A stretch of DNA of 64,000 nt from an uncultured delta proteobacterium. GTDB lineage: Bacteria > Myxococcota > Myxococcia > Myxococcales > 40CM-4-68-19. Position numbers and translations under genes: made by a program. The DNA is taken from NCBI GenBank assembly GCA_903911145.1, contig CAIWCD010000018.1:62001-126000 (forward strand), written 5' to 3'. Positions 1,882 through 34,924 of this stretch are shown here, one piece after another (position 1 is the stretch's first letter; each line of letters starts with the position of its first letter). The notes below the pieces were generated by a model. It made no database searches, was not told the DNA's origin, and saw only the letters and a list, made by a program, of their open reading frames with translations.

Positions 1882-2724
1882 TCAGAATGACATGCGCAGA
1901 GTCATGCCGCGCGCTTGATCGCCGAGCAGCGGCGCGACGGAGAGCGTCGAGAGCGGGCGGAGCGCGAGCAGTCTCGTTCCCGCACCGTCACGCGGAGCGC
2001 CTTGCGCGGTCGTCTCGTTCACACTGGCCGCCGTGTTCGAGTGAGCCGCGCTGCGTGGCGCGCGCGCGTTGTACTCCTCGAGCAGGTCGCGTCGCTCGTC
2101 GTCGCCGCCCGCATCCGGATGCATCCCGACGAGGCCTCCGACGAGCACGCCAGTGCCGGCGATGATCCCGCCGATTCCCACGAGAGCAAGTGTGGCAGCG
2201 AGCTGGTTGTTGATCGCGTACTGAGGCGAGCAGTTGCTCCGCGCGCCGGGAAGATTGCAGCTGCGAAAGCCTCCCGCCGCGTAGGCGATGTCGCCGATCA
2301 GCGTCGCCGTGCCGAGGCCCGCGAGCACCGCGCCGCCGATCACGACGGCCTTTTTCTCTTTTCGCCGGTCGTGCAGCGCCTCGGCGAGATCCCTGCGCCC
2401 GACCGCCTTGTAGAACTGCTCGGGGGTCAGCGCGGTGGTGACGCCGTTGCGTGTCTTGGTCGCCCTGCCGTCTTCGTCGATCTCGAGGACCGCGCGCGAC
2501 CGGGTGCGGTGTGCAGGAGGTGGAGGCGGCGGCGCATCGAATCGCTGCTCGGGCAGTGCGCTCGCGCCAGGCGCGGCCAAGGCCGGGTGCGGCGTGGCGT
2601 CGTTGTCGATCACCAGCGGCCTCTCCGAATCGCTCCCGTCCGCGCCCAGAGCCGGTTTACGCGCGACGAGGGCGACGAGCGTGAACGAGGCGACAGCGAG
2701 CAGTCGAGCGTTGATCCGGTTCAC
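1882..2724 (-). CDS. Tandem paralogue 3: secreted/membrane protein of unknown function
   Basis: 280 aa from a GTG start. A longer open frame extends to 2796, but the GTG at 2722-2724 gives VNRINARLLAVASF, matching the starts of the other copies, and is preceded by a strong AAGGAGG seven bases upstream. Features match the family: signal-like N-terminus ending near ALGAD, Pro-rich linker, DEDGRATKTRNGVTTALTPEQ, FYKAVGRRDLAEALHDRRKEKK, two Gly/Ala-rich hydrophobic segments, DERRDLLEEYNARAPRS, and C-terminus RGMTLRMSF. This copy has extra Cys residues between the hydrophobic segments. It is probably first in a three-gene transcription unit. Confidence 0.83.
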   Translation of the reverse strand: MNRINARLLAVASFTLVALVARKPALGADGSDSERPLVIDNDATPHPALAAPGASALPEQRFDAPPPPPPAHRTRSRAVLEIDEDGRATKTRNGVTTALTPEQFYKAVGRRDLAEALHDRRKEKKAVVIGGAVLAGLGTATLIGDIAYAAGGFRSCNLPGARSNCSPQYAINNQLAATLALVGIGGIIAGTGVLVGGLVGMHPDAGGDDERRDLLEEYNARAPRSAAHSNTAASVNETTAQGAPRDGAGTRLLALRPLSTLSVAPLLGDQARGMTLRMSF

Positions 2725-2799
2725 GGGGCCCCTCCTTGAAGTGCGCCAAGCGTAGCAGGCGAGCCTCTCGGTCGACATCCGCCGACTCGAGCCCATCGC

Positions 2800-2947
2800 T
2801 CAGAACGACAGGCGCAGAGTCACGCCGCGCCTTCGGCCATTCGCGCGCAGGCGGCGCTACATCGTCGGCGTGCACGGGTCGCGCTGCCGCGATGGCGAAG
2901 AGAGCGAGGGAAATCCAGATGCGCAACTGGGAGTCGATGCGGTTCAT
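2800..2947 (-). pseudogene. Remnant of a fourth paralogue, internally deleted and frameshifted
   Basis: The ATG at 2945-2947 (GGAGCC upstream) opens MNRIDSQLRIW... with a hydrophobic signal-like stretch ending in HADD, comparable to MNRINARLL... of copy 3. In another frame, the DNA ending at the stop codon 2800-2802 encodes RRRGVTLRLSF, the family's C-terminal tail. The distance from start to stop is 148 bp, not a multiple of three, so the two ends cannot be joined by one frame. About 230 internal codons are missing. This looks like a decayed fourth copy of the array. Confidence 0.7.
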
Positions 2948-3111
2948 GAGGCTCCGTCACGAGCGAGACCTTGCAGTCGGCAACACGCCTTCTCGTCGCG
3001 AACTGCAGTGCAGACAGGCATTGGACTGGCGCTCCTCGCGATGTGGCTTCCTGCTGCGCCGGCCTCCTCCGATCGACCGAGGTAGAGTGCTCAAGTTCAT
3101 CGGGAGCTCGC

Positions 3112-3867
3112 ATGCGCGCGGACGAGAAGAACGACAGCGAACCCGCGCTGCGCCTGGGCGCGGTGCTCGACGAGACGCTCGCTGAAGGGCCGGGCCTGCG
3201 CTTCGCCGTCTGGGTGCAGGGCTGTTCGTTGCGCTGCCCCGGGTGCTGCAATCCGCACCTGTTCGACACGCGCAGGGAGAGGACCGCGGCTCGCGATGAT
3301 CGCCTCGGCGTGAGCAACGAGGACGCTCAACTCCTGTCAGTCGGCGCGCTGCTCGAGCGGCTCTCCCGCGCCCAGCAAGGCTTTGCGGTGCTCGGGCGGC
3401 GATCGTTTGAGTGCCAATCATTGGAACACCAAGCATCTCACCGCCTCGAGGGAGTCACGTTGCTGGGCGGCGAGCCGTTCGAGCAGGCCGAGGCTCTCTC
3501 TCTCTTCGCGCGCGGCGCGCATGCGCTCGGCCTCTCGGTGATGACCTTCAGCGGCTACACGCTCGAGGAGTTGCGCGCTCCCTCTGCGCCAGCGTGCAGC
3601 GCCGCCTTGCTTGCCGAGACCGACCTGCTCGTCGATGGGCGCTACGATCAGCGCCAACCTGAGCGCGCCCGCCGCTGGGCCGGCTCGCAGAACCAGCGCT
3701 TCCACTTCCTGACGTCGCGTTACGCGCCGGGCCTCGAGTTGATCGCCCACGGCGAGGTCGCGCAGACCGTCGAGGTGCGCATCGGCGGCGATGGCAGGGC
3801 GCTCGTCTCCGGTTGGCCCGAACAGCTCGCGCTCGGTCGGCGCACAAATGCGACGAGGGCACGATGA
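3112..3867 (+). CDS. Radical SAM 4Fe-4S activase-like protein (NrdG-type)
   Basis: 251 aa. The motif CSLRCPGC near residue 40 (C-X3-C-X2-C) would bind the 4Fe-4S cluster that cleaves S-adenosylmethionine. The following NPH and the GGEP motif (VTLLGGEPFEQAEAL) are typical of single-cluster activating enzymes related to the anaerobic ribonucleotide-reductase activase. No nrdD-like partner is present here, so the substrate is unknown. The ATG at 3112 was chosen over an upstream in-frame ATG because family similarity begins just after it and GGGAG precedes it. The region just before GGEP contains a short dispersed repeat (3401-3437) that appears as unusual residues, roughly RSFECQSLEHQAS. Its stop overlaps the next ATG (ATGA), so the two genes are translationally coupled. 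Confidence 0.8.
   Translation: MRADEKNDSEPALRLGAVLDETLAEGPGLRFAVWVQGCSLRCPGCCNPHLFDTRRERTAARDDRLGVSNEDAQLLSVGALLERLSRAQQGFAVLGRRSFECQSLEHQASHRLEGVTLLGGEPFEQAEALSLFARGAHALGLSVMTFSGYTLEELRAPSAPACSAALLAETDLLVDGRYDQRQPERARRWAGSQNQRFHFLTSRYAPGLELIAHGEVAQTVEVRIGGDGRALVSGWPEQLALGRRTNATRAR
3401..3437 (-). repeat. Short dispersed repeat, copy A (inside radical SAM gene)
   Basis: Read on the minus strand, this 37-bp stretch matches 30813-30864 except that it lacks exactly one 15-bp unit. Shared blocks are GATGCTT, GTGT.CCAATGATTGG and CAAACGATC. It is more AT-rich than its surroundings and is translated in frame within the host gene. Confidence 0.7.
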
Positions 3868-6814: not shown

Positions 6815-7228
6815 CTATTTCGTCTTCAGCTGCTCAGCTGCGAGCGCGACGCCCTTGAGCTTCGCTTTGGAGGCCTTGTCGAGCACGGGCCGGATGAAGC
6901 TGTAGTCGGTGTCGACGTCGGCCTTGATCATCACGCGCAATCCCTTTGCTCCGGCATCCTTGAGATTGGCGAGCAGCTGCTCGGGAGTCACCTCGTCCGA
7001 CTCGAAGTAGAGCTTGCCCTCCTTCGTCACGGAGACGAACTTGGGGTCCTGGTTCGGCGGACCGCTGGCGGCGTGAACTGCCTTGGGCAGCTCGACGCTC
7101 TTGCCGCGCTGGAGCATCGGCGTGATCACCATGAAGATGATCAGCAGCACGAGCACCACGTCGACGAGCGGCGTGATGTTGATGTCCGAGCGGACTGCAG
7201 CCCGGTTGCTGCCGGTGTCCATACCCAT
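6815..7228 (-). CDS. exbD: ExbD/TolR-family biopolymer transport protein (first copy)
   Basis: 137 aa with a single N-terminal helix carrying DINITPLVDVVLVLLIIF, where the Asp is conserved for proton-motive-force coupling. A compact periplasmic domain of about 90 residues follows (LRVMIKADVDTDYSFIRPVLD). Length is normal for ExbD. It is 6 bp downstream of exbB and followed by a second exbD, so the motor may use two different ExbD proteins. The N-terminal RSDINITPL is identical in both copies, implying duplication with divergence in the periplasmic part. Confidence 0.93.
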   Translation of the reverse strand: MGMDTGSNRAAVRSDINITPLVDVVLVLLIIFMVITPMLQRGKSVELPKAVHAASGPPNQDPKFVSVTKEGKLYFESDEVTPEQLLANLKDAGAKGLRVMIKADVDTDYSFIRPVLDKASKAKLKGVALAAEQLKTK

Positions 7229-7234
7229 GGCGGT

Positions 7235-7981
7235 CTAGCCTCGCGGTGCGGGCGGGGGAGCCTTGCCAGAGCCAGGGTTCGTCAGCGGCTCGTCGAAGCG
7301 GCCTTCCTTGAGGAAGAAGTCGACCAGCTCGTTCGAGGCGTCGGCGATGTCGACCGTCATCTCCTCGACCCGGTTGGTGAGGAAGTTGAACATCATCAGC
7401 GCGGGGATCGCCACGAGCAGACCGAAGGCCGTGGTGATGAGCGCTTCCGAGATACCGGAGGAGACCGAGGCGAGACCGCCCGAGCCCGACGCGGCCATCA
7501 ACTGGAAGGCCGTGATGATGCCGAGCACCGTGCCGAGCAGACCGACGAACGGCGCCGTCGAGGCCACCGTCGCGAGTCCGCCGAGGCCGCGGCGCATGTC
7601 TGCCGTCACGCGCAGCGTCGCCCGCTCGAGCGCGCGGTTGATCGCCTCGACGAGGTCGAAGTCACCGACGTCGTGGGGACCCTTGTTGTTCAGCGCATCG
7701 CGGCCCTTGTTGTACTCGGAGATTCCGAGTCCGAGCACGCGGGGGATGTGCCCGTGCTTGAGCGTGCCCGCGATCTGGGCCGCCTCGACCATCTGGTGGC
7801 CGGGGAGCAGGTCGCGCAGCTTCTCCGCGTACCGGCGCGACTGCTCGCGCGCGCGGTTGAAGGCGATGAGCCGCTCCACGATGATCATCATCGAATACAC
7901 CGACTCGATCGCGAGGGTGATCACGACGAGGCGCGCCGGAAGGCCCATCGAGTGCCACATCCCAATTACGCTGAAATCCAT
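7235..7981 (-). CDS. exbB: ExbB/TolQ/MotA-family proton channel
   Basis: 248 aa. Three hydrophobic segments are visible: residues about 15-38, 137-160 and 178-203. The family signature lies in the second and third (TVASTAPFVGLLGTVLGIITAF and SSGISEALITTAFGLLVAIPA). ExbB and ExbD form the inner-membrane motor that energises TonB. A strong GGAGGA ribosome site precedes the ATG. Second gene of the operon, 30 bp after tonB. Confidence 0.94.
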   Translation of the reverse strand: MDFSVIGMWHSMGLPARLVVITLAIESVYSMMIIVERLIAFNRAREQSRRYAEKLRDLLPGHQMVEAAQIAGTLKHGHIPRVLGLGISEYNKGRDALNNKGPHDVGDFDLVEAINRALERATLRVTADMRRGLGGLATVASTAPFVGLLGTVLGIITAFQLMAASGSGGLASVSSGISEALITTAFGLLVAIPALMMFNFLTNRVEEMTVDIADASNELVDFFLKEGRFDEPLTNPGSGKAPPPAPRG

Positions 7982-28355: not shown

Positions 28356-28377
28356 CGCGCGAACAACTTGTCTGACG

Positions 28378-28572
28378 TGCCGCCGTGGCGCCCCGGAAGG
28401 GGCCTCGAGGGAAGCCGGTTCAACGCCGGCGCGGTCCCGCCACTGTAGCCGGGCAGTCTCGAGCCGATGTGCCACTCGCCCAGTCATTGGGGCGGGGAAG
28501 GCGGGCCCGAGGCGCGTCGCTCCCCGCAACGGGAGCGGCATACCCGGAAGCCAGGAAACCTGCCCGGCGGCA
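28378..28572 (+). ncRNA. Cobalamin (adenosylcobalamin) riboswitch
   Basis: The closing stem P1 is TGCCGCCG (28378-28385) with CGGCGGCA (28565-28572), exactly complementary. The core contains GGGAAGCCGGTT (28409-28420) and GGTCCCGCCACTGTA (28433-28447), and the B12 box AAGCCAGGAAACCTGCC lies at 28548-28564. These are the conserved elements of the cobalamin riboswitch class. It lies about 40 nt before the ribosome site (GAGGGGAG) of the BtuB-like gene. High cobalamin should reduce expression of the whole uptake operon, probably by blocking translation initiation, since no T-run terminator is visible. Confidence 0.95.
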
Positions 28573-28612
28573 ACAGCTCGTTCACCTCTTCGAGAGAGAG
28601 AGGGGAGCTCAC

Positions 28613-30733
28613 GTGCCGTCGCCTCGCGCCCAGACTGGGCGTGTATTTTCTGCTGCTGCGCTATTCCTCGTCGCGGCCTTGCGTGCGCATGGCGAGAGCG
28701 CAGCGACAGTCGGAGCATTCCCCTCCGGCGGCGGAGTGTCGGACGAGATCTCGGGCGACGAGGTCGACATCCCTGTCGGGGCGGTGTCGCGGACACCTTC
28801 GGTGCCGACCACGGCCATCGACGTCGAGCGGTTTGCTGGCGAGCAGACCAGCGTCGCGGAGCTTCTCGCCGCTTCGCCGGGCACGACCGTGCGTGCGCTC
28901 GGTGGACCGCTGCAGACGGCGACTGTCTCTCTGCGTGGCGCCTCGGCCGATGAATCGCTGATTCTTCTCGATGGGATCCCACTGCATGGGCCGGGCGGTG
29001 GAGCCTTCGATCTCTCCGCGATTCCGGTGGCACTCATTTCACGGATCGTCGTTCACCGCGGCGTGCTCGGGGCACAACTCGGAGCGGGGGCGTTGGGCGG
29101 CGCGATCGAGATCGTCCCTCGCGCGGCGCAGGCGGAGACGCAGGTCGGTGTGCGTGGCTCGTTCGGTTCGTTTCAGACAGCGCAACTCGCGGGAGAGTTG
29201 TCGTGTGGCGCGTCGTGTGGAGCGCTGCAGGGCGTGACGGGGGCGATCCAGCTCGACCGCACTGGGGGCGGCTTTGGCTACCTGCGCAGCTTCACTCCCG
29301 ACGTGGCGGGCGCTCCGCTCGTGCAGGAGACGCGGCAGAACGACGATGCGACGAGGTTGGGGATTCTCGTGCGCGACGAGACAGAGATCGCCGCGGGCAC
29401 CACACTCGACGTCCTCGCGCTGGGGTCGCTGGGCGACCGCGGACTGCCGGGCCCGATCGGTGCCTTCACGCTTCGCTCTCGCTCGGAGGATCAGAGCGGG
29501 ATTGTCGGCGCTCGGGTGCGTCGTGCGGAGGGGAGTGCGGTTCTGTCTGCTCGCGCGTGGGCGCAGATCGATCGGGTCGTTCTCAATGGCTCGGGCGATG
29601 GATTCTCGTCGTGCGCTTCTGGAAACGATCGCTCGTGCGCGGAGCAGGAGACGCACAGCCTCTCGGCGCGCGGAGAGGTCGAGGCCTCGTTCCCGATCGG
29701 AGGACTGCAGTGGGCGACAGCGACGCTCTCCGGTGGCTCCGACTGGTTCGCCGGGCAGGGTGCGGGCGTGCATCGACGCGGCGTCGGGTCTCTCGCGCTG
29801 CACGACGAGTTCACGCTGCTCGGAGGAGCGCTGTCGCTCGCTCCGGCCGTGCGCCTCGATGCAATCGGAGCTGATCTCGCGGCGAGCCCTGCGCTCGCGA
29901 TCTCCATGCGACCGTTCGCCGGAGCGCAGACTCGCGCGGTGCAGCAAGGTGCGTCGGGGCAATCGATGCCGCTTCCCGCGTCGATGCAGTCCGCGCAACC
30001 CGCGCTCTCGACCGCGCCCCTGGCCAACGCGGACACCTCGCGCGGCCTCCTCGAGTTGCTTGCTCCCCTCGAGTTTCGGGCGAGCGCGGGCCTGTCGTTT
30101 CGCGCGCCGAGCTTCGCCGAACTCTACCTCCAGCAGGGAGGTACATCGCCCAACCCTTCTCTGCGGCCGGAGCGCGCGGGCTCGATCGACGTCGGCGCCG
30201 CCTATCACACCGCTCGCGTGACCGTGGCGGGGACGCTCTTCTGGTCCCGTTTTCGCGATCTGATTCTCTACGAACTCTATCCGCCTGCGAGGGAGAAGCC
30301 GTTCAACATCGGGCAGGCGCGGGTGCTTGGGGCCGAACTCGAGGCGCTCGTCGTGTTGCCGCTCGGCTTCACGGCGGAGCTTTCGTGGAGCTATCTCCAG
30401 GCCATCGACGAGCGCCCGGCCGCGACGGAAACGGGCCAGAAGCTTCCCTACCGACCGCCGCACCGCCTCTTCGCTCGCGCGGCGCGACGGGGAGATCGGC
30501 TCGAGGGATTCGCCGAGGCCGTTTTCTCCTCCTCGATGCCCCGCAACCAGTTCGGTACGACGTCGCTGCCGTCGCAGTTCACGCTTTCCTGTGGATTGGG
30601 TGCGCGCGTCGTCGGACCGCTCTGGGTGGATCTCGAGCTGAAGAACGCGCTCGACGACCAGACCCAGCAGGACCTCTTCCAGTACCCGCTTCCGGGCCTG
30701 TCTCTCTCCGCGATCGCGCGCGCCCGCTTCTGA
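28613..30733 (+). CDS. btuB: BtuB-type TonB-dependent cobalamin receptor
   Basis: 706 aa from a GTG at 28613 preceded by GAGGGGAG. A longer frame from 28385 would translate the riboswitch and is rejected. The signal peptide (FSAAALFLVAALRAHGESA) is followed by a plug domain (VSLRGASADESLILLDGIPL, VVHRGVLGAQLGAGALGGAI) and a beta-barrel ending in AIARARF with a terminal Phe. The barrel is longer than E. coli BtuB. Cobalamin as substrate is inferred from the riboswitch upstream and btuF-btuC-btuD downstream. Energy would come from a TonB complex such as the one at 6.3-8.8 kb. Confidence 0.9.
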   Translation: MPSPRAQTGRVFSAAALFLVAALRAHGESAATVGAFPSGGGVSDEISGDEVDIPVGAVSRTPSVPTTAIDVERFAGEQTSVAELLAASPGTTVRALGGPLQTATVSLRGASADESLILLDGIPLHGPGGGAFDLSAIPVALISRIVVHRGVLGAQLGAGALGGAIEIVPRAAQAETQVGVRGSFGSFQTAQLAGELSCGASCGALQGVTGAIQLDRTGGGFGYLRSFTPDVAGAPLVQETRQNDDATRLGILVRDETEIAAGTTLDVLALGSLGDRGLPGPIGAFTLRSRSEDQSGIVGARVRRAEGSAVLSARAWAQIDRVVLNGSGDGFSSCASGNDRSCAEQETHSLSARGEVEASFPIGGLQWATATLSGGSDWFAGQGAGVHRRGVGSLALHDEFTLLGGALSLAPAVRLDAIGADLAASPALAISMRPFAGAQTRAVQQGASGQSMPLPASMQSAQPALSTAPLANADTSRGLLELLAPLEFRASAGLSFRAPSFAELYLQQGGTSPNPSLRPERAGSIDVGAAYHTARVTVAGTLFWSRFRDLILYELYPPAREKPFNIGQARVLGAELEALVVLPLGFTAELSWSYLQAIDERPAATETGQKLPYRPPHRLFARAARRGDRLEGFAEAVFSSSMPRNQFGTTSLPSQFTLSCGLGARVVGPLWVDLELKNALDDQTQQDLFQYPLPGLSLSAIARARF

Positions 30734-30774: not shown

Positions 30775-32031
30775 ATGACGCCGAATCCGATGACGCCGAA
30801 GAAGATGCGGGAGATGCTTTGTGTACCAATGATTGGAGTGCCAATGATTGGTGTTCAAACGATCGTGCTGGCCGCGCTGCTTTCGGCGTGCAGCGGCGGA
30901 GGCTATCTGGCGCCACCGCCTCTGCCGAGCACGACTCTTCCGTCGGGCGCGGCGCTCAAACCGTGGGTCGCGGGAGACCAGGGGCTCTCGAAACCGGAAG
31001 GGATGGCGCTGGCGGCGGACGGGCGCGCGTGGGTGACGCTGACGAACCTCGACGCCAACTACGCTGCGGCGGGACCGGGCATGCTGGCGGGGGTTGTGCC
31101 GAGCACGGGCGCGACCACGCTCATCGATCTCGCGCGCAGCGATGCAGGCGTTCCACCGGGCAGCGACGCTGGCGTCGATGAGCACGCGTGTGTGAATCCG
31201 GGCGCGGTCAAGAGCGACGAGGGGCTCCTGCTGGTCGCGTGCGGCGGCTCGTACGGAGCATCCACCGGACCTGGCCGCGCGGTCGTGCAGGTCAATCCAG
31301 TGAACGGTTCGGTGGCGCACTCGCTGGCTGCGCCTGGCGGATTTCAGCCCTACTCGCTCGCGGGTGGCCCGACGAAGATCTGGATCGGCGACACCAACAC
31401 CGCGAGCCTCGCCAGCATCGAGCGGAGCAGCTTCGCGCTCGCCGATGGGGCGGACAGCGCGCACCCGGCCATCGCGCTCCCCTGCACCGATGCCGCCGAC
31501 GCGTACATGTACGTCAGCGATCTGCTGGTGGACGGGAGCGATCTCTTCGCGCTCTGCTCGGCGGAACCGGACGGGTACATCGTGCAGCTCGACGCGACGA
31601 CGGGCGCGGTGAAGGGGAGCGCGCAGCTGGTGGGCGCGACTCCCGTGGCGATGGCACTGCTCTCGGATGGCCGCATCGCGGTCGTCAACTCTGTCGATGA
31701 GACGCTCGCGCTGGTCACGCGTGGCGCGGCGGGCCCGACGGTCCAGCGCGCGGTCTACACCTTCGCGCACGGCGCGGCGCTCCAGGATGTCAAGGCGCGC
31801 GGGATGTTCGTCTTCACGGTGTCGTCGGGTACCAACACGGTGCAGAAGCTCGACCTCTCGCAGACGGCGCAGAGCAAGATGCTCGTCGGCGAGGTCAACA
31901 CCGGCGACAGCAGCTATCCGTACAACATCGTTCCCCTCGACGACGATCAGGCGATCGTGAGCAACAACGGAACGGGCGTGCTCGTCGGCGTGAAGTTCAC
32001 GGGCTCGTCGCGCGATGGCGGAGCGAACTGA
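30775..32031 (+). CDS. Beta-propeller lipoprotein in the B12 operon (BtuG-like candidate)
   Basis: 418 aa. AAGGA precedes the ATG. The signal peptide carries a duplicated VPMIG motif from a dispersed repeat and ends in the lipobox LLSAC, predicting lipidation near residue 40. The mature part has repeated blade-like segments (PEGMALAADGRAWVTLTNL, AGGPTKIWIGDTNTASLAS, ALLSDGRIAVVNSVDETLAL, PLDDDQAIVSNNGTGVLVG), as in YncE/NHL-type beta-propellers. It lies between btuB and btuF (42 bp after btuB, directly abutting btuF). Bacteroides places the surface B12-binding propeller lipoprotein BtuG with BtuB, so a similar role is a reasonable inference; homology to BtuG itself cannot be judged here. Four Cys residues follow the lipobox Cys. 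Confidence 0.78.
   Translation: MTPNPMTPKKMREMLCVPMIGVPMIGVQTIVLAALLSACSGGGYLAPPPLPSTTLPSGAALKPWVAGDQGLSKPEGMALAADGRAWVTLTNLDANYAAAGPGMLAGVVPSTGATTLIDLARSDAGVPPGSDAGVDEHACVNPGAVKSDEGLLLVACGGSYGASTGPGRAVVQVNPVNGSVAHSLAAPGGFQPYSLAGGPTKIWIGDTNTASLASIERSSFALADGADSAHPAIALPCTDAADAYMYVSDLLVDGSDLFALCSAEPDGYIVQLDATTGAVKGSAQLVGATPVAMALLSDGRIAVVNSVDETLALVTRGAAGPTVQRAVYTFAHGAALQDVKARGMFVFTVSSGTNTVQKLDLSQTAQSKMLVGEVNTGDSSYPYNIVPLDDDQAIVSNNGTGVLVGVKFTGSSRDGGAN
30813..30864 (+). repeat. Short dispersed repeat, copy B (inside lipoprotein signal peptide)
   Basis: 52 bp containing two successive 15-bp units, GTACCAATGATTGGA and GTGCCAATGATTGGT, followed by GTTCAAACGATCGTG. Copy A (3401-3437) has one unit fewer but the same flanks. 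The units are translated as VPMIG-VPMIG-VQTIV. Confidence 0.75.
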
Positions 32032-33015
32032 GTGAACGCGGCGCAGGAACGGACAGTGACGCTGATTGCGAAGTCCACCGCTGCTGTCGTCGCGGCCGTG
32101 CGATCGGCACCGCGCCCATCGCGCGCGCGCGCCCCGTGGACCGCGTCGCATCTGGTCCTTGCGCGCCTGCTTGCATGCGTGCTCGCGACCAGTCTGGGCG
32201 CGGCCCGGAGCGACTCGGGCCCGCCAACGCCGCGGCTGCAAGCGCAGCCGGACCATCATCTCGGACCCGAGCCGAAGCGCGAGATCCATCGGGTGGTGAC
32301 GCTCGCGCCGTCGCTGACGGAGCTGGTGCTCGCGCTCGGCGCAGGCGAGCGGCTCGTCGGCGTGACCCGCTTTGATGACGACCCGCGCGTGGCGAGCCTG
32401 CCGCGCATTGGCGGCTACAACGATCCCGAGCCCGAGGCGGTGCTGCGGCTCGCGCCCGATCTCATCCTTGCGCAGCCGGCGCCGGAGAATCGCGGACCGG
32501 TCGAGGCGCTCGCCCGCCTCGGCGTGCCGATCGATGCGTTCAAGCTCGGCACGATGGCGGAGATCCAGACCGCGCTCCTGGCGGTCGGCGCGCGACTTGG
32601 GCTCTCCGCGAAAGCCGCGGCTCTCGTGCAGGAGCTCACTCTGCACCGCAGCGAAATGCGCACGCGTGCGCCGGCGAAGGGCGAGCGGGTGCTGCTTGTC
32701 TTTGGTCTCGACCCGCTCGTCGTCGCGGGCCGCGGCGGTTTCGCGGGAGAGCTGCTTGAGGACACCGGCGCGATCAATGCACTCGATGATCCACGGCCCT
32801 TCGTGCGGCTCTCTGCGGAGGCGGCCGTCGCATCGCATCCTGCGCGAATTCTCCTCTGCGGAGTCGAGTCGCCGAGCGGTCGGTCTGCGCTGCCGGGGCT
32901 GGCTGATTCGCTGGTGACGACGCTGCAGGGAACCGCTCTGATGCATCCCGGGCCGCGACTCGTCGAGGCGCTCGATCAGCTCGCGGCGACGCTGTCCCGC
33001 ACGGAGTCGCGATGA
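32032..33015 (+). CDS. btuF: Cobalamin-binding periplasmic protein BtuF-like
   Basis: 327 aa from a GTG that directly follows the stop of the lipoprotein gene. An N-terminal region of about 45 residues precedes a hydrophobic export segment (ASHLVLARLLACVLATSLGA). The binding domain begins VVTLAPSLTELVLALGAGERLVGVTRFDD and contains RIGGYNDPEPEAVLRLAPDLILA, the class III solute-binding layout of BtuF. Cobalamin as ligand follows from the riboswitch and the neighbours; sequence alone would also fit a siderophore-binding protein. The long N-terminus suggests that the true start may be further downstream. Confidence 0.87.
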   Translation: MNAAQERTVTLIAKSTAAVVAAVRSAPRPSRARAPWTASHLVLARLLACVLATSLGAARSDSGPPTPRLQAQPDHHLGPEPKREIHRVVTLAPSLTELVLALGAGERLVGVTRFDDDPRVASLPRIGGYNDPEPEAVLRLAPDLILAQPAPENRGPVEALARLGVPIDAFKLGTMAEIQTALLAVGARLGLSAKAAALVQELTLHRSEMRTRAPAKGERVLLVFGLDPLVVAGRGGFAGELLEDTGAINALDDPRPFVRLSAEAAVASHPARILLCGVESPSGRSALPGLADSLVTTLQGTALMHPGPRLVEALDQLAATLSRTESR

Positions 33016-34055
33016 GCCGCGAACTCGATGACGCACGTCGGGCCGGGGCCGAAAGCGCTGCCGTGCGGGCCGTGCGGGTACTCCTGCTGCTCCTGCCGAT
33101 CCTCGCGGCCGCGATGGCGCTTGGCCTCACCAGCGGCGGGCAGCCGATCTCGCTCACTGCGGCGCTGCACGGCATCGAGCCCGACTCGACCATCCTGCGT
33201 TCGCTGCGTCTGCCGCGCGTGCTCCTCGCCGCCGAGGTGGGCGCGGCCCTCTCCCTTGCGGGCGTCGCGCTGCAGGCCCTCCTGCGCAATCCGCTCGCCG
33301 ATCCGTTCGTATTCGGCCTCTCCGGTGGCGCAGCGCTCGGCTCGGCGCTCGTCGCGGTGATCGCGCCCGCGGCCGCGGCCAGTGCGGCCTCCCTGCTCGG
33401 TCTCGTTCCCCAGCAGGTGGCGGCCTGCGCGGGGGCCTTCGGTGCGGCCGTGATGGTCTTCACTCTCGGGCGCGTGCGCGGCCAGCTCAATCCCGAGCGC
33501 GCGCTGCTGCTCGGCGTCGTCTTCAATTCGTTTGCATCGGCGGTCGTCATCGCGGCTCAAGCGCTGCTGCGCCCCGAGCGCACGCAGCAGATGCTTCTCT
33601 GGCTCTCGGGAACTCTCGGCTACGAGACGCCCCCCGTGCTGATCGCCGCGGGCCTCGCAGTGATGCTCCCTCTCGCGGCCCTGACGGCGCTCGCTGGCCG
33701 GCTCAATCTGCTCGCGCTCGGTGACGAGGAGGCGACCTCGCTCGGTGTCGACGTCGGCCAGACGCGCGCGCTTTCGTTCCTCGCGGCGAGCATCGCGGTG
33801 GGCGCATCGGTGGCGCTCACGGGCCTCGTCGGATTCGTCGGGCTCGTGGTGCCGCACGCGGTGCGCATGCTGACAGGTCCTGATCATCGCGTGCTCCTCC
33901 CTGCGTCCGCGCTCGGCGGCGCGATCTTCCTCGTGCTCGCCGACGCCGCTGCGCGCATGCTCTTTCGTGCCGTCGGCGCGGAGCCTCCGGTGGGCGCCGT
34001 GACCGCGCTGATCGGCGCGCCTCTCTTCGTTCTCCTGCTTCGGAGGCGCGCGTGA
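33012..34055 (+). CDS. btuC: Cobalamin ABC transporter permease (FecCD family)
   Basis: 347 aa, ATG overlapping the btuF stop as ATGA. About ten hydrophobic helices with FecCD signatures: SLRLPRVLLAAEVGAALSLA, ALLRNPLADPFVFGLSGGAAL, LVGFVGLVVPHAVRMLTGPD and VGAVTALIGAPLFVLLLRR. It imports the vitamin from the periplasm as a homodimer with two BtuD subunits. Length is normal for the family. Position between btuF and btuD in a riboswitch-controlled operon supports cobalamin rather than iron-siderophore specificity. Confidence 0.92.
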   Translation: MSRELDDARRAGAESAAVRAVRVLLLLLPILAAAMALGLTSGGQPISLTAALHGIEPDSTILRSLRLPRVLLAAEVGAALSLAGVALQALLRNPLADPFVFGLSGGAALGSALVAVIAPAAAASAASLLGLVPQQVAACAGAFGAAVMVFTLGRVRGQLNPERALLLGVVFNSFASAVVIAAQALLRPERTQQMLLWLSGTLGYETPPVLIAAGLAVMLPLAALTALAGRLNLLALGDEEATSLGVDVGQTRALSFLAASIAVGASVALTGLVGFVGLVVPHAVRMLTGPDHRVLLPASALGGAIFLVLADAAARMLFRAVGAEPPVGAVTALIGAPLFVLLLRRRA

Positions 34056-34924
34056 GCGATCGCGGAAAGCCAGACGGGACGCGGGGGAGCGCGATTCGTG
34101 CGCTCTCGCTCGTTTCTCCTGCGACGGCCGCGACGCTGCTGTCTTTGCGCGAAGTCGCCTTCCGCCATCCGGGCTCGCCCGCGGGTGCGCCCGAAGCGGT
34201 GAAGTCGGTCACGCTCTCGGTGCGCGCTGGCGAGATCGTCGGACTGTGCGGACCGAACGCGGCCGGCAAGAGCACACTGGCGCGCCTCGCCTGTGGCCTC
34301 TTGCGCGCGGACGCGGGTTCGATTGAACTCGGCGGCGCGCTGCTCGAGTCGCTCACTCTGCGCGCGCGGGCCAAGCAGGTCGCCTTCCTCGGACAGCAGA
34401 GCTTCTCGGAGCTTCCGTTCACCGGGCGCGAAGTGGCGCTGATGGGCAGGGCGCCGCATCTGGGCCTCTGGTCGCTCGAGGCGAAAGGAGATCGCGCGCA
34501 CGCCGAAGCGGCTCTCGCTGAACTCGACGTTCTCCATCTCGCCGATCGCCGCGTCTCGCAGATGTCGGGAGGCGAGCGCCAGCGCATCTTCCTCGCGCGC
34601 GCGTTTGCGCAGGACGCGGCTCTCTCGGTGCTCGACGAGCCGACGGTCGCGCTCGATCTCGCGCACCAGGTGCTCCTCGTGAATGCGCTGCGCAGCCGAG
34701 CCCGTGCGGGGAAGGGCGCGCTGCTTGTGCTTCACGACTTGAGCCTCGCCGCAGCCGCGTGCGATCGCCTGGCGCTGGTGGTCGATGGGCGAATCCTCGC
34801 GGAGGGAACTCCCGCCGATGTCCTCGTGCCTGCGCTGCTCGAGCAGGCCTACGGGACGGCGGTCGATGTGGTGCGCGATCCCGCGACGGGCCTGCCGATG
34901 GTCACGCCGCGCGTGCAGCGTTAG
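34052..34924 (+). CDS. btuD: Cobalamin ABC transporter ATPase
   Basis: 290 aa, GTG start overlapping the btuC stop (GTGA). Walker A GPNAAGKST near residue 70, Q-loop around VAFLGQQSF, signature MSGGERQRIFLARA, Walker B LSVLDEPTVALDLAHQ and H-loop LVLHDLSLAAAACD are all present. This is the FecE/BtuD-type ATPase energising BtuC. An N-terminal extension of about 30 residues precedes the core. Its TAG stop overlaps the stop codon of the convergent MFS gene by three bases. Confidence 0.93.
   Translation: MSDRGKPDGTRGSAIRALSLVSPATAATLLSLREVAFRHPGSPAGAPEAVKSVTLSVRAGEIVGLCGPNAAGKSTLARLACGLLRADAGSIELGGALLESLTLRARAKQVAFLGQQSFSELPFTGREVALMGRAPHLGLWSLEAKGDRAHAEAALAELDVLHLADRRVSQMSGGERQRIFLARAFAQDAALSVLDEPTVALDLAHQVLLVNALRSRARAGKGALLVLHDLSLAAAACDRLALVVDGRILAEGTPADVLVPALLEQAYGTAVDVVRDPATGLPMVTPRVQR

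Follow-up and report, generated by a model that had tools for sequence, protein, structure and literature searches.

A probable BtuG-like partner of BtuB in a riboswitch-controlled vitamin B12 uptake operon of Myxococcota

BtuG in the strict sense is a lipoprotein that binds corrinoids with femtomolar to sub-picomolar affinity and forms a stable complex with BtuB. In BtuG2, corrinoids are bound on one face of the propeller, which acts as a lid capping BtuB2 (PMC10404256). A 2018 study that defined BtuG by BlastP at 1e-10 described it as exclusive to Bacteroidetes and explained it by competition in the gut (PMC6143338). Is a lipoprotein gene that lies beside a btuB-like gene in an uncultured member of the Myxococcota a counterpart of BtuG outside that phylum, as an earlier note on this DNA had suggested? 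The stretch analysed, called here the window, is 64,000 nucleotides long and holds the following locus.

28368 to 28581, + strand: cobalamin riboswitch (RF00174), operon leader; cmscan 74.1 bits, full-length model match
28613 to 30733, + strand: BtuB-like TonB-dependent receptor, 706 aa from the GTG at 28613
30775 to 32031, + strand: BtuG-like lipoprotein gene, 418 aa, ATG start, predicted seven-bladed beta-propeller (open reading frame, AlphaFold2 model)
32032 to 33015, + strand: BtuF-like periplasmic substrate-binding protein (Peripla_BP_2, 5e-21)
33012 to 34055, + strand: BtuC-like permease (FecCD, 7.6e-77; best NCBIfam model BtuC, 1.1e-63)
34052 to 34924, + strand: BtuD-like ATPase (ABC_tran, 1.1e-28; top NCBIfam matches include corrinoid ABC transporter ATPase, 6e-65)

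The order is thus receptor, propeller, BtuF-like, BtuC-like and BtuD-like genes, all on the + strand and no more than 41 bp apart. The riboswitch is the sole RF00174 match in the host genome (5.3 Mb searched). The receptor frame at its longest opens at 28385, inside the riboswitch; its product matches the Pfam plug (7.8e-17) and barrel (2e-24) families, and its best NCBIfam model is TonB-B12 (3.2e-30, under the equivalog cut-off). The propeller gene follows after a gap of 41 bp, carries a GAAGGA ribosome-binding site 7 nt before its ATG and abuts the BtuF-like gene, whose best NCBIfam model is BtuF (5.4e-19, also under the cut-off). The place proposed for the gene, between btuB and btuF and abutting the latter, and its control by a cobalamin riboswitch within a single unit, are both borne out by this reading.

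The earlier note had also seen propeller-like repeats in the protein. With the protein sequence alone, the only hint of a propeller in a Pfam search was NHL at 0.066, below the cut-off. Using 29 rows of relatives, AlphaFold2 produced a model with seven blades (pLDDT 90.7, pTM 0.91), and the fold reading is that of this alignment-based model, a single-sequence model with a pLDDT of 39.7 having been discarded. Judging from the strand order in the model, mature residues 14–16, a short strand close to the N-terminus, would close the last blade. The repeats noticed earlier are therefore those of a predicted seven-bladed propeller. A Foldseek search of the PDB returned propellers in general, led by virginiamycin B lyase (TM 0.61), with BtuG at rank 12 (TM 0.53) in a sequential comparison that is disadvantaged by circular permutation. 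Thus, the comparison with BtuG asked for at the outset upheld the propeller and not BtuG as the closest fold: the modelled fold is a propeller, yet the fold search by itself is not specific for BtuG.

We compared the protein with its relatives through three profiles, which together define here a wider family of BtuG-like propellers: A1, the window's own family (13 members); A3, other Myxococcota; and A5, loci outside the phylum. The features of the protein used below are as follows.

30775 to 30888, + strand: lipoprotein signal peptide, residues 1–38, ending in LAALLSA before Cys39 (sequence)
30889 to 30891, + strand: Cys39, predicted lipidation site, followed at +2 by Ser, not Asp; invariant first column of A1
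31033 to 31080, + strand: VTLTNLDANYAAAGPG, mature residues 49–64, in blade 1 from the end of strand B through the B-C loop (alignment conservation, AlphaFold2 strands)

Lipidation of the protein, claimed before, is backed by the LSA-C39 lipobox, which nearly all relatives inspected possess, and by the invariance of the cysteine position across the 13 A1 members, both read from sequence. No Asp was found at Cys+2 in any of 39 relatives read, and the residues after Cys39, SGGGY, contain no Bacteroidota-type export signal; this signal is a Bacteroidota feature, and its absence here says little about function. No motif of the wider family is better conserved than the VTLTNLDANYAAAGPG stretch, which also marks the permutation described below; in the 29-row alignment, N53, P63 and G64 are invariant and G62 is conserved in at least 90% of rows. 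Invariant residues of the window's family lie in B-C loops (N53, P63, G64, D168 and N316) and near D-A loops (P154, C199 and P344), and propeller anatomy suggests that in the model these two sets of loops make up one face. Moreover, the invariant cysteines C101, C118, C199 and C223 suggest disulphides, which would place the protein outside the cytoplasm.

Two peculiarities of the window protein were also observed. Its signal peptide contains a tandem duplication, VPMIG VPMIG (30823–30852), encoded by two near-identical stretches of DNA, and a 12-residue insertion, ARSDAGVPPGSD (31132–31167, mature residues 82–93), occurs in none of the 12 other close relatives. DAG-rich inserts that resemble the latter, though much longer, are present in two other loci (L060 and L067).

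The note had called for a search for the same gene in other Myxococcota, taking its absence from related btu operons as evidence against the idea. The gene is present in each of the 12 genomes available from the host's family, every copy beside the receptor, an arrangement beyond chance. The sequence of the window protein alone matches 57 of 195 Myxococcota genomes, and A3 at a threshold of 1e-6 matches 157 of them and 191 of 384 genomes overall, 34 of which are non-Myxococcota; the weakest matches at this threshold may be other propellers. In the related-loci search, the single protein sequence found nothing and A1 reached the nearest genomes only. The propeller gene directly adjoins a BtuB-like receptor gene in 56 of the 58 Myxococcota loci read, the two exceptions being one at a contig end (L068) and one with no receptor found nearby (L067), and a cobalamin riboswitch was found in 35 of 41 loci scanned, the window included. 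As a guard against sampling bias, we searched riboswitches in 20 Myxococcota genomes lacking a profile match and read the genes downstream. A weakly matching propeller stood beside the receptor in 12 of 13 receptor loci; these E-values were computed on a small set of frames, and position is the decisive point. One candidate relative (L058), in which a propeller is joined to a part resembling cytochrome peroxidase and which matches at 3e-4 only, was rejected.

Some loci depart from the simple plan. In Myxococcaceae, the propellers follow Cys-rich repeats (L043–L047, L050, L052, L056 and L059–L069, except L045 and L068). Those of L050 match the MXAN_6577-like family NF041328 (E 2.8e-42), and MXAN_6577 of M. 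xanthus may, on this likeness, offer an experimental handle. Several Myxococcaceae (L043, L050; G117, G119 and relatives) possess a second receptor-propeller pair with no BtuF alongside; the two such pairs scanned (L043, L050 group) lack a riboswitch, and the second pair perhaps serves another corrinoid.

The same neighbourhood extends further. Among the non-Myxococcota loci read, 20 of 22 carry a cobalamin riboswitch and most have the receptor beside the propeller; in four (L165, L167, L171 and L179) the riboswitch is followed first by the propeller gene, whatever the position of the receptor gene. The phyla of two of these genomes comprise 4 (G303) and 7 (G228) genomes in the collection, all of which have a match; phylum size indicates that they are neither Bacteroidota nor Myxococcota, and some of the remaining loci may be Bacteroidota themselves. 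The suggested BtuG counterpart outside Bacteroidota is supported by its fold, its lipoprotein nature and its gene position, and it is not special to Myxococcota, since several other phyla share the arrangement. A C-terminal T9SS sorting domain, scoring above the curated cut-off, is present in four of the non-Myxococcota proteins (L163, L173, L175 and L177). Such tails send cargo to the cell surface or the medium, which suggests that these four are exported there. Another propeller from outside Myxococcota (L166) has a dockerin-like tail, as judged by eye, and in one riboswitch locus (L169) two BtuF-like genes (2449–3333 and 6854–7795) flank the propeller gene.

We propose that the window gene encodes a BtuG-like, B12-capturing partner of BtuB, a reading to which we give a probability of roughly 0.7. 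When B12 is low, the riboswitch would turn the operon on; the propeller, anchored in the outer membrane and facing outward atop the BtuB-like receptor, would bind a corrinoid in a pocket formed by the B-C and D-A loops and pass it to the receptor, for TonB-driven import, capture by BtuF and transport by BtuCD. B12 binding and docking onto BtuB are predicted by analogy with BtuG, and surface orientation by that same analogy together with the T9SS-tailed relatives.

The orientation is where the closest competing explanation, in our view an unlikely one, departs from ours. A lipoprotein of the outer membrane that faces the periplasm could relay B12 from BtuB to BtuF or scaffold the transporter. 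Such a role would suit the gene order btuB-propeller-btuF and the residue at Cys+2 (Ser, Gly or Pro), which is the usual signal for Lol sorting to the outer membrane, no known surface signal being present; moreover, the periplasmic lipoprotein BamB figures in the Foldseek list. It fits poorly with the sorting tails of the four non-Myxococcota members and with several Myxococcota loci in which propeller and receptor are paired without BtuF alongside, indicating that the partner is the receptor. In addition, those BtuG relatives that have been characterised are exposed on the cell surface (PMC6143338, PMC10404256).

If the window protein is a BtuG-like partner of BtuB, how is it related to BtuG itself? 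Neither the window protein (phmmer) nor A1 (hmmsearch) reached a BtuG chain in the PDB, and Pfam gave no significant link between the protein and BtuG. DUF5074 (PF16819) likewise had no Pfam match in the window protein, with weak matches in 2 of 19 A3 members and 6 of 16 A5 members. The relationship emerges through a chain of profiles. A1 aligns with a doubled A3 at a score of 335 (E 3e-44, circular permutation allowed) and A3 with a doubled A5 at 381 (E 2e-49). Searched against all 177,635 PDB sequences, A3 had BtuG1 chains as its top three matches (4e-6 to 4.5e-5). The entries 8PTF and 8PTD share the sequence of the BtuG1 chain 8BLW over the compared stretch and are not independent support. 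A5 gave E-values of 1.9e-25 for BtuG1, 1.5e-15 for BtuG2, aligned along almost the full protein, and 6e-14 for BtuG3. It also matched the archaeal YVTN protein 1L0Q at 1.5e-36, above BtuG1, and 3BWS about level with BtuG2, whereas virginiamycin B lyase reached 0.0024 only. Two attempts were abandoned: an alignment that combined N-terminal with C-terminal fragments (A2), in which the N-terminal ones fell in the wrong blades, and a mapping by short segments of the BtuG2 residues that contact B12 (Trp194 and Trp272), for which the blade register differed between BtuG2 and BtuG3, so that we make no residue-level claim.

The alignments further reveal that, at the level of sequence profiles, a circular permutation separates the window's branch from A3 and A5. 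Residues 8–351 of A1 align to 164–526 of the doubled A3 through the join at 369, with the score of 335 exceeding that of the best linear alignment (256), while blade-shifted registers reach at most 76. Against doubled A5, the corresponding scores are 220, 134 (linear) and 103 (blade-shifted). As a control for generic propeller likeness, A1 was aligned with its own blade-shifted copy and scored at most 36. BLAST found two segments in swapped order within one open reading frame of L018, at the same place as in L048. The signature loop NNLDxxYxPAGPG and its variants move accordingly: close to the N-terminus in the window's family, mid-protein in Myxococcaceae and others, and C-terminal in two loci (L048 and L068).

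These results bear on a different possibility, that a YVTN/YncE-type propeller was recruited for another task (such as receptor assembly, interaction with a partner protein, or binding of a metal or some other ligand) and that the resemblance to BtuG is generic. Generic YVTN propellers do score well against A5, the fold search is unspecific, and a number of curated models for other propellers give matches of modest score. We nevertheless consider this improbable, because the register-specific profile alignments far exceed the blade-shifted ones, BtuG1 obtains 93 bits against A5 compared with 41 for E. coli YncE, and the linkage to a receptor and a cobalamin riboswitch holds across phyla, also in the riboswitch-first sampling. 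Taken together, the profiles support common ancestry inside the YVTN/YncE superfamily and tie the family closely to BtuG. By itself, the chain falls short of proving a BtuG-exclusive clade; it is the shared gene neighbourhood that makes this tie specific. Given that the window protein and A1 do not reach BtuG directly, we use the label BtuG-like rather than BtuG. Between shared origin and separate evolution, both of which had been entertained, the chain to BtuG1, BtuG2 and BtuG3 leans to distant common ancestry, with the window's branch permuted.

The host genome encodes a B12-dependent methionine synthase (metH), and no match above the cut-off was found for cobQ or cobB in this genome, which is 99% complete; the gene content therefore indicates that the host probably depends on imported corrinoids. 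Cobalamin riboswitches can control cobalt uptake too, and the receptor and the BtuF-like protein have sub-equivalog scores, but we regard it as very improbable that the operon and its propeller serve cobalt chelates or another metallophore instead of B12. The top models of the receptor, the binding protein and the permease are each specific for B12, and a host with metH but no cobQ or cobB match above the cut-off would gain nothing from cobalt by itself.

The BtuG-like, B12-capturing partner proposed here can thus be set beside known systems. It shares with Bacteroides BtuG1, BtuG2 and BtuG3 (3DSM, 8BMX, 8BLW, 8OKV; PMC6143338, PMC10404256) a lipoprotein nature, a seven-bladed propeller, a place adjoining btuB in a riboswitch-controlled locus and profile homology through A3 and A5; it differs in lacking a significant match by direct sequence comparison or in Pfam, in its circularly permuted blade order and in having no Bacteroidota surface-export signal, and its corrinoid binding and its complex with BtuB are predicted by analogy. 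The YncE/YVTN propellers (E. coli YncE 3VGZ, S-layer 1L0Q, Lp49 3BWS) belong to the same superfamily and have YVTN-like strand motifs, but against A5, YncE obtains fewer than half as many bits as BtuG1. To our knowledge, these propellers have no comparable linkage to B12 uptake. Virginiamycin B lyase (Vgb, 2Z2N), the best Foldseek match, is seven-bladed too, but it is an enzyme acting on streptogramins with no genomic link to B12, and the window protein had no Pfam match to its family at E ≤ 1, so that the likeness is one of fold only. BtuH and DUF4465 (BtuJ) are accessory B12-binding lipoproteins (PMC8941943, PMC13398666), as predicted for the window protein, but come from unrelated families with no Pfam match to it. 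DUF4465 B12-binding proteins do occur in Myxococcota (PMC13398666); for BtuG-like propellers in this phylum, we found no report in the open-access literature.

Propeller-assisted B12 capture is therefore probably not a speciality of Bacteroidota. A homologous, permuted family beside btuB in Myxococcota and small phyla would shift the origin of such capture outside the gut, and the window's family would provide a new B12-binding scaffold. More tentatively, and at somewhat less than even odds, a propeller partner may be a normal and widespread part of BtuB-type importers in many outer-membrane phyla, repeatedly reshaped by circular permutation and by added domains such as Cys-rich repeats and T9SS tails, in which case the lidless BtuB of E. 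coli would be the special case. This raises the question of why Enterobacteria manage without a propeller partner.
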